Source: Chryseobacterium sp. ISL-80 (GTDB lineage Bacteria; Bacillota; Bacilli; Bacillales; Cytobacillaceae). Taken from it: a DNA stretch of 64,000 nucleotides. Within the stretch, counting starts at the first letter, position 1; every line of letters starts with the position of its first letter. The stretch spans positions 62,001 through 126,000 of the forward strand of contig JAGGQZ010000014.1 in NCBI GenBank assembly GCA_018613055.1, given 5' to 3'. The translations under genes were made by a program, and so were the position numbers. Of the stretch, positions 38,026 through 60,437 are shown one piece after another. Below the pieces are notes generated by a model. It saw only the letters and a list, made by a program, of their open reading frames with translations. It was not told the origin of the DNA and searched no databases.

Positions 38026-38524
38026 TCATGCACTTGCTAAATTTCTGCTAATCATTTGATCAAAAAAAATTAGGGGCGCAAATTCCATATTGAATCTACG
38101 ATTTAGGTGGAGATAGCCCCTCTTTTTACGCTTCCGGTTGGCTTGTTCTTCTATATACTGCTTTATTATTTCAACTGTAGCCCCTCCAGTGCTGATAATA
38201 GAGTAGCTGCGATTCCAGAAATAGGGTTTCCAATAGTATGGTTTTAAATGTTCTTCGAACTCTTTTCGAATATAACGGGAGCTGACAGTTTTAAAGTTAT
38301 TTATTGCTTTAGAGAGCTCTATCTGCGGGTGAGCCTCGAACAAGATATGAATAGGATCCGACTCTCCGCTTATTTCAATTACCTCGCAACCCCACTTTTC
38401 GAACAAATTGTGTGCAATCTCTATGGCGGATTAATATGTCTTTATTAATGCACTTTTTCCGAGTCACTACAACTAAATGATATTGAAGGTTATAAACCGC
38501 ATGTCTATTCCTTTTAAATTGCAT
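38026..38524 (-). pseudogene. tnpA: tnpA, IS200/IS605 Y1 transposase, frameshifted
   Basis: From ATG 38524 the frame reads MQFKRNRHAVYNLQYHLVVV then TRKKCINKDIL, with the QYHLV metal/HUH-side motif, but then leaves the family sequence. The rest, IAHNLFEKWGCEVIEISGES then DPIHILFEAHPQIELSKAIN and the catalytic-Tyr helix region VEIIKQYIEEQ, is in another frame starting near 38430. The frames join at about 38425-38435. The expected HIH-type motif reads PIHI here, with the first histidine replaced by P. Confidence 0.8.
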
Positions 38525-55979: not shown

Positions 55980-56111
55980 GAAAATGGTAATTTCGCAAAA
56001 ATAAGACGCAGAATAAGGCAAAACAGAAGCTGGAACAAAGCTCATTTTATGGAGGTTAGATTCTTACAAATTATAGGACGCCGGACCCCTCCCATGTCTC
56101 CTTTTATAGGG

Positions 56112-56791
56112 GAAAGATGCCCTTATGTGAGCTTGACATCCTCCATAAGGGTATCTTTATGGGGAAAAGATGCCCTTATGTGACCTCGATGCCGTGTATA
56201 AGGGTATCTTTACGAGCGAAAGATGACCTTATGAGACCTCGATACTGTGCATAAGGGTGTCTTTTTACGCGAAAGGTGACCTTATGAGGCCTTGAAACCC
56301 TACATAAGGGTATCTTTATGGGCGAAAGGTGACCTTATGTGACCTCGATGCCGTGCATAAGGGTATCTTTATAGGAGAATGATGCCCTTATGAGACCTCG
56401 TTACTGTGCATAAGGGTATCTTTTTACGCGAAAGGTGACCTTATGAGGCCTTGAAACCCTACATAAGGGTATCTTTATGGGCGAAAGGTGACCTTATGTG
56501 ACCTCGATGCCGTGCATAAGGGTATCTTTATAGGAGAATGATGCCCTTATGAGACCTCGATACTGTGCATAAGGGTATCTTTTTACGCGAAAGATGACCT
56601 TATGTGACCTTGATACCGTGCATAAGGGTATCTTTATAGATGAAAGATGCCCTTATGAAGCCTTGAAACCACGCATAAGGGTATCTTTTTAAGAGAATGA
56701 TGCCCTTATGTAGCCTTGAAACCGTGCATAAGGGTATCTTTTTAGACGAAAGATGTCCTTATGAAGCCTCGATGCTGTGCCTAGGGGTATC
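56112..56791. repeat. Tandem array 1: twelve 53-bp hairpin units plus one partial
   Basis: Units begin at 56112, 56164, 56218, 56271, 56324, 56377, 56430, 56483, 56536, 56589, 56642, 56695 and 56748 (partial). From the third unit onward the period is exactly 53. Each has GAAAGATGCCCTTATG, a variable 16-base middle, then CATAAGGGTATCTTT, so each unit can pair as a long stem. Units 4-6 are repeated as 7-9 (159-bp higher-order copy). No reading frame crosses the array. The middles are of recurring types (TGACCTCGATGCCGTG, GGCCTTGAAACCCTA), not unique spacers, so it is not CRISPR. Confidence 0.95.
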
Positions 56792-56852
56792 GAAAGGTGC
56801 TCTTATGAGACCACAAATCCCCGGAACCATCCCCTAGTCCCATAATTAATCG

Positions 56853-56885
56853 AAAAAAAAACCAGCAGAGCTCCCCCGCTGGTTT
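56853..56885 (-). terminator. Rho-independent terminator of the desaturase gene
   Basis: AAACCAGC and GCTGGTTT pair around a GC-rich loop and are followed by TTTTTTT on the minus strand. It lies between the gene stop (56891) and array 1. Confidence 0.88.
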
Positions 56886-56890
56886 AACTA

Positions 56891-57781
56891 TCACTTTGTC
56901 TTATAAAACCTGTCCCTTACTCTTTTTAACCGTGCATGATACTTCAAAATATCAAGCCTTGCTTTTTCAGCTTCTGGTGCGATCGGGCGCAGTTTTTCAA
57001 CTTCCCAGTAGTCTACAATGACATCAAGGACCTGATCGAAATACTCCAGCGGGCCGTAATTGGCTTCCTTGGCAATGATGGACATCCGGTCTTCAAAGTC
57101 AGGCATGACGGCACCCGGCATTTTGAAATTCATGATCACATGCCCAAGGTAGTAGCAGTAATTCGGCTCCAATTGCAGATGATATTTTATGACATCCCGG
57201 TAAAAAGCATAATGCAAGGTCTCGTCCTTTGCCAGGCGCCGCAGCAGGCTGGACAAATCACGATCGTGTGGACCCGCTACTTTTGCCACATTGTTATAAA
57301 AGACCATGGTGGCAAGCTCCTGCAGTGAGGTATAAACCATCGTCTCAAATGGTGTATGGAAGTCAGGGTTCCAGCCATTTTCAACGGTTTGCTTATGTAG
57401 CTGATGAAGCCGGTCTGGATTGACATTCCGCGTAATTAATAGATACGTTTCCAGCAAGTTTGAATGCTGATCCTCTTCTGCTGTCCAGGTATGAACGAAA
57501 TCCTTGATGACCGTTAATGACCCTTTGAAGGTCTGATCAAGATACGAAGTAAACCACGGGAGATTCACTTCCGTTAAGAGAGCTGTTTCAACAGCGGTGA
57601 CGACGGATCCAGGCAGGGTCACCTGGCTTTCGTCCCATGGAACACGCCTGAAATCCTGCGCCTTATCCCATGGCAGGAATTCATGATAGCCCCAGTCTAT
57701 TTTCTCAGCCCTCTTCTTATGTTCTTCATATAACTCTCTGACCTTTGGTTCAAGTCTGAAATCTAAATGGTTAGTTAGCAA
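56891..57781 (-). CDS. Acyl-ACP desaturase, ferritin-like di-iron enzyme
   Basis: 296 residues from TTG with GGAGGG upstream. TALLTEVNLPWF gives the first iron ligand E, TAEEDQHSNLL the EExxH, SLQELATMVFYNNVA the next E, and RLAKDETLHYAFY the second ExxH. This is the stearoyl-ACP desaturase fold; typical plant enzymes are longer (about 360), bacterial ones close to this length. Introduces a double bond into acyl-ACP with O2 and reduced ferredoxin. It stands between the two hairpin arrays. Confidence 0.85.
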   Translation of the reverse strand: MLTNHLDFRLEPKVRELYEEHKKRAEKIDWGYHEFLPWDKAQDFRRVPWDESQVTLPGSVVTAVETALLTEVNLPWFTSYLDQTFKGSLTVIKDFVHTWTAEEDQHSNLLETYLLITRNVNPDRLHQLHKQTVENGWNPDFHTPFETMVYTSLQELATMVFYNNVAKVAGPHDRDLSSLLRRLAKDETLHYAFYRDVIKYHLQLEPNYCYYLGHVIMNFKMPGAVMPDFEDRMSIIAKEANYGPLEYFDQVLDVIVDYWEVEKLRPIAPEAEKARLDILKYHARLKRVRDRFYKTK

Positions 57782-58083: not shown

Positions 58084-58980
58084 TTGAAAAAGCATGGGAT
58101 TATATCACTGGGCGAAGTAATCGTTGATTTGATTGCAACCGATTCCTCCAATACCACATTTCAGCGATTATTAGGGGGAGCCACTGTCAATGTCGCAGTC
58201 GGGGTTAGCAGACATGGCATTCCATCGTATTATTTATGCAAATTGGGAAGGGATGAAAGCAGTAAATTTGTTGATGGCGAATTAAAGAAGGAAGGGGTTG
58301 ATCTTTCTTTTTGTTCTTATAATATGAATAAACAAATCTGCTCAGTTTACATCCATTTAAATGAGCTGGGAGAACGGTATTTCCATTCGTATGTAAACGA
58401 AACTCCTGATGAGTGGATCACTGCGGAGGAACTTGATCGTGGCCCGTTCCTGAAAAGCAAGCTGTTTTACTTTGGATCTGGCACTCTTTTTCACCCAATT
58501 GCCAGAAAAACAACTAAACAAGCTATCCACAATGCCAGAGAAGAGAATATGCAAATTGCATTCGATACCAATATCCGGTTGAAACGATGGAAAAGTGAGC
58601 ACCAGTGCAGAGAAACGATTCTCTCCTTTGTGCAGAAGGCCGATATCGTAAAAATGACGGAAGAAGAAATGCAGTTTTTAACAGAAACAGAAACTCTAGA
58701 ATCCGCGTTAGATCAGATTGCAAAACTGGAGATCCCTTTCCTATTTGTCACGAAAGGAAAGGACGGAGCATATGCCATTCATGAAAATAGGATTGTGCAT
58801 GTCCCTGGAATTCCGGTAAAAGCGATTGACACAACAGGTGCCGGAGACGCGTTCATGGCTGCCATTCTATCCCGCTTCCATGACAACGGGATCCCTCACA
58901 ACGAAGCTGAATTAAGGGAGTATACTGAGTTTGCCAATAAAGCCGGAGCACTGTCTGCCACTAAATTGGGATCTTTATAA
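58084..58980 (+). CDS. PfkB-family carbohydrate kinase, fructokinase-like
   Basis: 298 residues from TTG with GGAAGGAG upstream. ISLGEVIVDLIATDS opens the fold; RLLGGATVNVAVGVSRHG is PfkB signature 1 and AIDTTGAGDAFMAAIL signature 2 with the catalytic aspartate. FVTKGKDGAY is the adenine-loop strand. Phosphorylates fructose or a similar sugar with ATP. No sugar transporter lies beside it. Array 2 begins 86 bases downstream. Confidence 0.9.
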   Translation: MKKHGIISLGEVIVDLIATDSSNTTFQRLLGGATVNVAVGVSRHGIPSYYLCKLGRDESSKFVDGELKKEGVDLSFCSYNMNKQICSVYIHLNELGERYFHSYVNETPDEWITAEELDRGPFLKSKLFYFGSGTLFHPIARKTTKQAIHNAREENMQIAFDTNIRLKRWKSEHQCRETILSFVQKADIVKMTEEEMQFLTETETLESALDQIAKLEIPFLFVTKGKDGAYAIHENRIVHVPGIPVKAIDTTGAGDAFMAAILSRFHDNGIPHNEAELREYTEFANKAGALSATKLGSL

Positions 58981-59065
58981 AGAGCAAAAGGGACCATTCT
59001 CCTGTCTCCTCCCTCCCCAAAAACCGCAAATTCGGAAAAGAAATCGTCTTCCTAGATGCCGAACC

Positions 59066-59505
59066 AAAGGGTATCTTTATCACCGAAAGATACCCTTATG
59101 TGACCCCGAACTCTTTCCAAAGGGTATCTTTATCACCCAAAGATAACCTTATGTGACCCCGAACTCTTTCCAAAGGGTATCTTTATCGGCGAAAGGTACC
59201 CTTATGTGACCTCGAACCCCACCCAAAGGGTATCTTTATCCACCAAAGGTACCCTTATGTAACCCCGAACCCCATCCAAAGGGTATCTTTATCACCGAAA
59301 GGTACCCTTATGTAACCCCAAACTCCACCCAAAGGGTATCTTTATCACTGAAAGATACCCTTATGTGACGCCGAACCCTATCCAAAGGGTATCTTTATCA
59401 CCGAAAGATACCCTTATGTAGCCTGGAAGCCTCCCCAAAGGGTATCTTTATCCACCAAAGATACCCTTATGAGGACCCGAACTACTTCCAAAGGGTATCT
59501 TTATC
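59066..59505. repeat. Tandem array 2: eight 53-bp hairpin units plus one partial
   Basis: Units begin at 59066, 59119, 59172, 59225, 59278, 59331, 59384, 59437 and 59490 (partial); the period is exactly 53 throughout. Each unit starts AAAGGGTATCTTTATC, has a short ACCG-type loop, then GAAAGATACCCTTATG, giving a 12-bp stem, followed by a variable GTGACCCCGAACTCTTTCC-type linker. The core and the linker start (TTATGTGACC) match array 1 in the same orientation, so both arrays descend from one unit. Confidence 0.95.
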
Positions 59506-59600: not shown

Positions 59601-60437
59601 TTAAGCGATTTTCACTTTCAGTAACCTTTCCATAGCCATATGCACGCTAGAGGTTACTGGGATGTCCGATACATTAACGCCTAGGTTAACCATTGTTTGC
59701 GCGATTTCTGGGCGTATACCTGAGAGGATCGTATTAACCCCTAAGAGCGACAACGCCCTTACTACTTTAAAGATCCGATCAGCAACCATCGTATCAATAA
59801 TAGGAACACCAGAGAGGTCAATGATTAAATGTTCCAATGATAATTCACTGCTTTTCATTAGAGCTTTGTTCATTAATTCTTGAGCTCTTTGGGTATCTAT
59901 ATCCCCGATGATCGGTAGTACCCCAATTTGATTTGATATCTTAATGACTGGAATGGACAATTCTAACGCAGAGGCTTCAGCTACCATTATTCGAGTGTAG
60001 AACATTCGTGTGTAAGAGATGCTTAACCAATGAACAGCGCGGTCAACCACGGAATCAAAATCTGATAATAAATCGTAAAATTCCGCTATTGGCAGATTAA
60101 GCTCTACAGCTTCTTCCTTGATGATATGTCCTATTAGATTTCTATAATCTCTGACTTCATCAAGAGCGATTTCCAAAGGCAGGTTGTAGTTTACTAAAGT
60201 GTCAACTGCTTCCTGCCCCCATTCCTTTAATACTTGAAAAGAAGTTTCTAAATCACTCGTAACAGAAAGTGCATATATATTAATGATATTCTCACGCCAC
60301 TCTTGTAGCTGAGAGTCAATTTTAAACGATGTTTGGTGGGAATCTAGCTGAGTTTTATGTTCAATGAGCCTTTGTTTTTCTAAAAGAATCTTATCCGATA
60401 TACTCTGAAGATAATCAATTTCCGTTTGCTCGTTCAC
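59601..60437 (-). CDS. RsbR-paralogue stressosome protein with STAS domain
   Basis: 278 residues from GTG. Residues 1-140 match the globin-like sensor half of RsbR proteins. Residues 155-270 form a STAS domain: ISNQIGVLPIIGDIDTQRAQ carries the first regulatory threonine and LIIDLSGVPIIDTMVADRIF the second, the RsbT phosphorylation sites in B. subtilis RsbRA. Standalone, without rsbS, rsbT or rsbX nearby, like the ykoB/yojH/yqhA paralogues. Part of the multi-protein complex that signals stress to SigB. Confidence 0.9.
   Translation of the reverse strand: MNEQTEIDYLQSISDKILLEKQRLIEHKTQLDSHQTSFKIDSQLQEWRENIINIYALSVTSDLETSFQVLKEWGQEAVDTLVNYNLPLEIALDEVRDYRNLIGHIIKEEAVELNLPIAEFYDLLSDFDSVVDRAVHWLSISYTRMFYTRIMVAEASALELSIPVIKISNQIGVLPIIGDIDTQRAQELMNKALMKSSELSLEHLIIDLSGVPIIDTMVADRIFKVVRALSLLGVNTILSGIRPEIAQTMVNLGVNVSDIPVTSSVHMAMERLLKVKIA

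Follow-up and report, generated by a model that had tools for sequence, protein, structure and literature searches.

The window analysed here, a 64,000-nucleotide stretch of contig C6 in the 4.75-Mb genome of Chryseobacterium sp. ISL-80 (G000), carries two tandem arrays of one repeat family, 2.3 kb apart, among the following features:

56103–56811, plus strand: array 1, a dispersed member of the CCCTTATG family with 13 units of 53 bp and then a degenerate half unit
56272–56430, plus strand: three-unit block within array 1 (units 4–6), duplicated as units 7–9
56431–56589, plus strand: second copy of the three-unit block (units 7–9), identical to units 4–6 at 158 of 159 bases
56891–57781, minus strand: fatty-acid desaturase-like gene (PF03405, by Pfam), neighbour of array 1
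58084–58980, plus strand: PfkB-family kinase gene, neighbour of array 2, ending 83 bp before it
59064–59505, plus strand: dispersed array 2 of the CCCTTATG family, 8.3 copies of 53 bp by TRF
59601–60437, minus strand: STAS-domain gene, neighbour of array 2 and converging on it

TRF places array 1 at 56103–56791 (period 53, 13.0 copies, score 769), where a preliminary description had located 53-bp hairpin units at 56112–56791. Each unit runs from a left arm, AAAGRTRCCCTTATG, through a 16-nt array-specific loop to a right arm, CATAAGGGTATCTTT, and a 7-nt spacer. Right arms matching CATAAGGGTATC with up to three mismatches occur 13 times from 56144 to 56780, and all 12 intervals between them are exactly 53 bp, which corrects the spacing of 52–54 bp previously ascribed to the early units. 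The left arms also number 13 at an exact 53-bp step, with a degenerate extra arm 44 bp further on, at 56796; the right arm of unit 13 is degenerate and a remnant half unit follows it. The array itself is thus as described, and its count of twelve full units and one partial becomes 13 units plus a remnant half. The copying of units 4–6 as 7–9 was already recognized in that description, as was the intergenic position, which is upheld by the absence of any ORF of 80 aa or more spanning the array. The right neighbour lies on the minus strand, and a terminator-like hairpin with a T run, identified by eye at about 56853–56886, separates the 3′ end of the desaturase gene from the array; the direction of the left neighbour is unsure because ORFs overlap on both strands there. 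Array 2, flanked by convergent genes, has a variant right core, CCAAAGGG, that is present too at the orthologous site in two other genomes (G011 and G020). This second array had escaped the preliminary description, together with the conservation of 8-bp cores as opposed to array-specific loops, and the cognate gene of the family was invisible to it because that gene lies outside the window. A partial match to an IS200-type Y1 transposase at 38143–38427 of the window (minus strand) is the only Y1 match in the window's genome, and no cas genes were found among five array-neighbour proteins scanned with Pfam.

A search for the unit in related genomes, as the preliminary description had proposed, revealed a dispersed family that numbers at least 17 arrays in the window's Mesobacillus-like genome, array 1 among them. 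Exact matches to the arm pattern (35 stretches) came from Mesobacillus subterraneus, M. selenatarsenatis, M. boroniphilus, "Cytobacillus oceanisediminis" DE0166 and Bacillus sp. ISL-37, ISL-41, ISL-45 and ISL-55; the genus label Mesobacillus used below is inferred from the named matches. The exact pattern CCCTTATG-N16-CATAAGGG is present in 16 of 21 genomes of the genus. Among 387 genomes from elsewhere in the order it was met in one, as a lone unit. Our sample of the family comprises, among the matches listed, at least 86 arrays and at least 774 units from eight genomes, and across the 86 arrays the 8-bp arm cores CCCTTATG and CATAAGGG are constant while the loops change from array to array. 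Core identity is 95.1% when non-orthologous arrays from different species are compared and 95.3% within one array; the corresponding loop identities are 37.7% and 78.2%, with 69.2% between orthologous arrays. That the cores are as alike between arrays as within them and the loops are not indicates that the cores are held by selection or by mechanism and that the loops drift and are homogenized locally, a pattern that lends no support to a freely slipping satellite alone, one of the options raised earlier.

Clustering the fetched arrays by matching neighbour genes gave 47 sites from eight species. Among the arrays fetched, at least 21 of these sites are common to two or more species, one of them to six, and 26 occur in one species only. 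With sites shared in this way and cores conserved, the family does not behave as a set of copies varying randomly in number and sequence with no fixed position, the outcome against which the preliminary description had set its view. At the site of array 1, only three of 20 genomes (G000, G011 and G020) have a CCCTTATG array in the roughly 1.5 kb that follow the desaturase gene. A different tandem array, with a 21-bp period and 30.7 copies (L110:2525–3161), lies behind the desaturase gene in G008, a genome without the CCCTTATG family. The intergenic site upstream of ychF (L174, L165, L167, L178) holds a CCCTTATG array in several species and a GGTCACCAAT-like 52-bp array in others, so that one site can host different array families. 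According to mechanical gene calls, the 45 unique sites that have a gene on either flank divide into 26 codirectional, 16 convergent and 3 divergent, and in 21 of the 26 codirectional gaps the array is closer to the end of the upstream gene. Against 368 other adjacent gene pairs from the same loci (264 codirectional, 52 convergent and 52 divergent), convergent gaps are enriched (16/45 versus 52/368, p = 0.0009), and the depletion of divergent gaps is not significant (3/45 versus 52/368, p = 0.24). The positions of CCCTTATG-family arrays in G011 show no departure from uniform (KS p = 0.13). An origin of the arrays from plasmids, phages or viruses was considered and rejected, as no array matched those collections.

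The protein partner of the family came to light through one site present in the three best genomes, when the 309-aa neighbour at that site was searched across the genus. In the window's genome the gene lies outside the window:

Contig C35, 142076–143002: 309-aa NERD gene, with its own CCCTTATG-family array at the 3′ end

The protein belongs to the NERD family (PF08378, 58.6 bits against a Pfam cut-off of 22.1). Orthologs (at least 80% identity over 305–309 matched residues) are present in 14 of the 21 genus genomes, and in 14 of 14 the CCCTTATG-family cores lie directly behind the near-full-length ortholog, where TRF reports an array in 13, the remaining one being cut by a contig end. These 14 genomes carry 11–104 exact units. 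The ortholog of G017 has an in-frame stop, yet that genome keeps its units, and in G012 the gene is broken in two pieces with no adjoining array and 26 exact units elsewhere. No ortholog was found in G018, which has one exact unit, or in G002, G007, G008, G014 and the 66%-complete G010, which have none. Overall, the 15 gene-bearing genomes (one copy broken) have 11–104 exact units and the six without the gene have 0 or 1, and in a tree built from two genes for 19 of the 21 genomes and rooted at its midpoint, the genomes without the gene are spread over four places. The pairing of gene and array is well supported by these observations. Arrays in G012 average 3.5 units, a shortening that would fit decay after the gene broke, but the average is low (4.3 units) in G016 too, where the gene is of full length.

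The 309-aa protein is predicted to comprise a nuclease fold, a zinc ribbon with four cysteines and a winged-helix-like tail. In its AlphaFold2 model (mean pLDDT 90.5) the tail is built of helices and two paired strands, which we read as a probable winged helix. In an alignment of 22 NERD proteins (A2), all of which match PF08378 at E 0.1 or better, D78, K92 and E46 are invariant, an E or D stands two residues before K92 in 22 of 22, the four cysteines are likewise invariant and the tail is variable. The best PDB hits include the PD-(D/E)xK nucleases Can2, Card1 and a Pyrococcus repair endonuclease, at TM-scores of only 0.2–0.3 and with one such hit at E 0.001; by motif and fold the protein is a member of the PD-(D/E)xK superfamily. 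Plasmid, phage and viral collections yielded no NERD relatives at the limits used, and a search of viral structures turned up one NERD protein, from Siphoviridae, of modest similarity (E 8e-7).

Other NERD genes raise the question of how general this pairing is. Genomes of the genus contain 1–7 NERD matches in 20 cases and none in the incomplete G010, and several matches lie at contig ends. Among the 26 paralog loci examined, out of 90 paralog matches in the genus, each of the 20 taken from six genomes shows a tandem array with a 52-bp period shortly downstream of the NERD gene, and arrays are present at all of six further loci (L196, L201–L205), five with period 52 and one with 51. The arms of these arrays are unlike those of the CCCTTATG family; they vary from one NERD group to another, members of some groups having the same arms, and higher-order periods of 104 and 155–156 bp occur beside several of the genes. 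Two of the paralog loci have particular structures: at L218:361–1245 in the window's genome, a TTCGGACAG-family NERD gene with an in-frame stop is accompanied by a very homogeneous array (98% match, 4.9 copies) at a contig end, and at L229 in G008 a 26-copy 52-bp array stands behind the gene with a 21-copy array about 1.7 kb away on the other side. As controls within Mesobacillus, a 50–54-bp array lies within about 1.5 kb at 4 of 20 desaturase loci and at 15 of 21 ychF loci, ychF having been chosen as an array site. Because arrays are this common in the genus, adjacency there is less striking than the co-occurrence described above and the result from outside the genus.

Outside the genus, the NERD alignment was searched against 55 genomes from the order, nine of which belong to the same family, and 32 matched at E 1e-20. 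Strong matches numbered 40 above 270 bits in 23 genomes, and TRF reported a 51–53-bp array at 20 of the 23 loci that were best in each genome, downstream of the gene at 17 and upstream only at three (L248, L254, L256). The arrays at L241 and L242 have only 2.2–2.5 copies. Of the loci with no TRF array, L251 is masked and L252 and L257 look degenerate by eye. Three further strong loci in two of those genomes all have arrays, bringing the total to 23 of 26 loci, the 26 being those examined among the 40 strong matches. In unselected sequence away from NERD genes, 380 kb of a first outside genome contained two 52-bp arrays and a 50-bp repeat of two copies, and 340 kb of a second contained one 51-bp and one 52-bp array. 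On this background an array would seldom lie within 1.5 kb of a gene by chance. Distant NERD loci gave a different result, with no 50–54-bp array at any of seven and a two-copy 102-bp repeat at one. The flanks of these seven loci, each from a different outside genome (L259–L265), show imperfect repetition at 20–21 bp, or two turns, in 7 of 7; their local autocorrelation is 0.50–1.0 compared with a median of 0.44 and a 95% level of 0.51 in random 600-bp windows, L262 and L265 being weak. A second NERD clade may pair with two-turn arrays.

Five helical turns of DNA correspond to 5 × 10.4 bp. The recurrence of a 52-bp period (or 51 or 53) beside NERD genes with unlike arms bears out the five-turn phasing suggested in the preliminary description, and the constancy of the step despite unlike arms and loop lengths points to phasing on the DNA helix rather than to RNA folding. 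The same period with unlike arms is also what would be expected if spacing is under selection. Dispersal is not peculiar to the CCCTTATG family. A second family in the complete genome G011, with arms TTCGGACAG and CTGTCCGAA and another NERD gene, gives 56 BLAST matches that merge by hand into 33 places, the array of its own NERD gene included, with no departure from uniform positions (KS p = 0.98). Two families of the genus are thus dispersed to many places, those of the CCCTTATG family being intergenic and mostly behind genes or between convergent ones. In the outside genome G034, an array 240 kb from the NERD gene (L274) is by eye of the same family as the array of the gene, and arrays of other 52-bp families were met in loci fetched for other reasons.

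The variable tail is a candidate for the part of the protein that reads the arms. Loci L219 (G000) and L224 (G011) are one locus whose aligned parts are 89–91% identical, and the alignment is missing over the last 60-odd NERD codons and the array and resumes beyond; the nuclease part is 91% identical and the tail 53%, and the arm word TCCGATAGA occurs 10 times in the L219 array and never in that of L224, where GACATTT occurs 11 times against none in L219. Another single locus, represented by L216, L221 and L230, has a nuclease part 87–94% identical and a tail 48–56% identical, and the three arm words (10, 9 and 6 copies) are each confined to their own array; here the gene aligns throughout, so the tail has diverged rather than been replaced. 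Common arms go with similar tails in L220/L223 (94%) and L224/L234 (76%). At one locus represented by L222 and L232, the nuclease part is 87% and the tail 56% identical, yet both have TTCGGACA arms (23 and 18 copies), and L226 and L231 have tails 58% identical, yet share CACCAAT arms; in both pairs the arms are retained although the tails have diverged, which may mean no more than a higher rate of evolution in the tail. Over 18 NERD proteins, array similarity has a partial rank correlation of 0.31 with the nuclease part and 0.27 with the tail, the latter reached by 2 of 2000 permutations, and the nuclease part is correlated too. These comparisons of sequence suggest, and do not establish, that the tail recognizes the arms. 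Two degenerate two-copy 52-bp arrays, at L080:10662–10770 and L089:2082–2237 (G011 and G020), resemble the L219 (TGTCCGATAG) family by eye; they are possibly remnants of a family since switched, the G011 gene at that NERD locus having other arms.

Several explanations of the arrays can be weighed against these data. That the hairpins act as RNA, transcribed arrays binding or inhibiting the nuclease in the manner of type III toxin-antitoxin RNA repeats, is an idea to which we give very little credence. Two of three single units fold better than all 200 dinucleotide shuffles (z = −4.2 and −4.6), the third being weaker (z = −2.0, with 8 of 200 shuffles equally good), and arm complementarity is kept as sequence differs, the palindrome score of array consensuses averaging 7.9 against 4.8 when shuffled and exceeding the shuffled 95% level in 28 of 47. 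The array adjoins a nuclease-like gene, and co-transcription is conceivable, given that only 2 of 17 NERD loci have a strong terminator-like hairpin separating the stop codon from the array (a third has a weak one). Against this, covariation within the CCCTTATG family does not exceed that of shuffles, a two-sided change being present in 2 of 810 cells, a result that also leaves the RNA-folding role entertained in the preliminary description without support in the family; the scattered arrays sit between unrelated genes; and a period kept near 52 while loop length varies among array families is more readily explained by helical phasing. By inspection, the arms carry G-T or A-C pairs depending on strand, with no consistent relation to gene direction. 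It is hardly credible that the arrays are mere satellites, produced by slippage or unequal exchange at hairpins with the NERD gene only a neighbour. Multi-unit duplications do occur, both in the window (158/159) and as the 104- and 155–156-bp periods beside several NERD genes, but a satellite would not account for arm cores fixed across independent arrays with loops drifting, for genus-wide co-occurrence with one NERD ortholog, or for a period that recurs, inside the genus and beyond it, next to NERD genes whose arrays have unlike arms.

Two further explanations give the protein a function for the cell. It may be a host chromosome organizer that binds the dispersed, phased arrays and bridges or insulates DNA, its nuclease fold serving for binding or DNA maintenance; we think this unlikely, even though it would suit the five-turn phasing, the constraint on the arm cores, the sites common to up to six species, the preference for convergent gaps and the 33 second-family places that do not differ from uniform. 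Against an organizer stand the patchy presence of the gene, with several separate absences, the up to seven NERD genes per genome, an active-site motif kept in 22 of 22 proteins, the differences in tail and arms between sister species at two loci, and the 26 of 47 sites that, among the arrays fetched, were seen in one species only. A defence system, in which NERD recognizes foreign DNA, the arrays titrate it, mark self or regulate, and conflict with phages underlies the differences in tail and arms, is in our judgement very unlikely. The joint change of tail and arms at two loci and the several NERD genes per genome would be natural for such a system, and four of four proteins have weak similarity, far below cut-off, to MAD6 and one of them to PglW, both known from defence systems. 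However, PADLOC assigned no family to three of the four, the only hit of the remaining protein being a weak one to Cas10 (15 bits), and the searches of plasmid, phage and viral collections gave no relatives at the limits used.

We consider it somewhat more probable than not (roughly 0.55) that the window array is a dispersed copy of the family belonging to the 309-aa NERD protein, and that protein and arrays form a nuclease-plus-array pair that may be largely a genomic parasite. We read the whole as a chromosomal nuclease-plus-cognate-array system, by analogy REPtron-like in layout with an unrelated enzyme, and selfish spread is our leading guess for its role. The kept active site, the homogenization and duplication of the arrays, their spread to many sites that appear harmless, their repeated absence and their changing specificity in our view fit a nuclease-driven repeat parasite best. 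The inheritance of array sites between species counts against this reading, and site conservation together with a chromosomal spread that shows no departure from uniform leaves room for a host role. We envisage that the variable zinc-ribbon/winged-helix tail recognizes the arms and that protein copies bound every 52–53 bp would sit on one face of the DNA. More speculatively, the PD-(D/E)xK-type active site might nick or cut the repeats, and the arrays might then be expanded, homogenized and occasionally spread as the lesions are repaired through copying or unequal exchange, much as has been proposed for the mobilization of REPs by RAYTs. The pair could persist in this way largely as a genomic parasite or as a partly domesticated one. 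The interpretation offered in the preliminary description is partly supported by this account.

We also entertain, tentatively and at somewhat less than even odds, a broader reading in which NERD proteins are a general class of repeat-partnered DNA enzymes, each with a phased tandem array of its own, at 52 bp (five turns) in the clade studied here and at 20–21 bp (two turns) in a more distant one. The pair would spread arrays over the chromosome and could switch specificity through a joint change of C-terminal tail and array. If so, a selfish or semi-domesticated nuclease-driven repeat system would be widespread in the order. A class of bacterial tandem repeats that would otherwise pass as satellite DNA gains a protein partner, a five-turn step rule and group-specific arms, and the arrays become a candidate substrate for the nuclease-like NERD domain. 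If the tail reads the arms, the natural differences in tail and array between sister species would be material for decoding protein–DNA recognition. The arrays also break genome assemblies; contigs C33 and C35 of the window's genome start or end in one.

No named element was found to correspond to the unit, in agreement with the preliminary description: Rfam returned a single match at chance level, which we rejected as an identification, and among the matches listed from the open-access literature, with subscription journals mostly outside its scope, no description of NERD-associated arrays was found. Passages of two papers (PMC10910872, PMC9040797) mention no cognate repeat array, and the authors of the second, on the S. 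aureus protein SmdA, state that to their knowledge NERD function had not been studied experimentally before. As to CRISPR, the likeness lies in regular repeats separated by variable segments. Here, as already noted in the preliminary description, the segments in between are repeated inside one array and are not unique spacers; they also differ from array to array. In type III toxin-antitoxin systems of the ToxIN kind the repeats are located before the toxin gene. ToxIN resembles our system in joining a nuclease gene to tandem repeats. Our system departs from it in the usual place of the array, downstream of the gene, in the scattering of the family across the chromosome and in having a NERD protein, and no ToxN-like family is among 25 of the 28 Pfam families listed for 22 NERD proteins.

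The nearest layout is that of REPtrons, in which, according to PMC3733652, a dedicated RAYT gene is flanked by a palindromic repeat, repeat-specific pairs occur in one genome, and REP copies are many, scattered and intergenic, mostly behind genes and between convergent genes. Both systems have a gene with its own palindromic repeat and scattered intergenic copies, and ours shares with REPtrons extragenic copies that lie mainly 3′ of genes. It has neither the Y1 transposase nor the tag: no unpaired GTAG/CGTC tag is conserved in the position profile of 86 arrays, and mobilization by RAYT/IS200 elements was rejected because Y1 transposase genes (PF01797), found in 18 of 21 genus genomes, fail to track the arrays: G006 and G015 have arrays and no such gene, and G002, G007, G008 and G010 have the gene and no arrays. 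The REPtron enzyme is an HUH tyrosine transposase and its repeats are 20–40 bp, mostly in close pairs, whereas the protein here is a NERD of PD-(D/E)xK type and the units are 51–53 bp in tandem arrays. The partner protein is a clear member of the NERD family (PF08378), and its cognate array is the feature for which no counterpart was found among the NERD papers listed.
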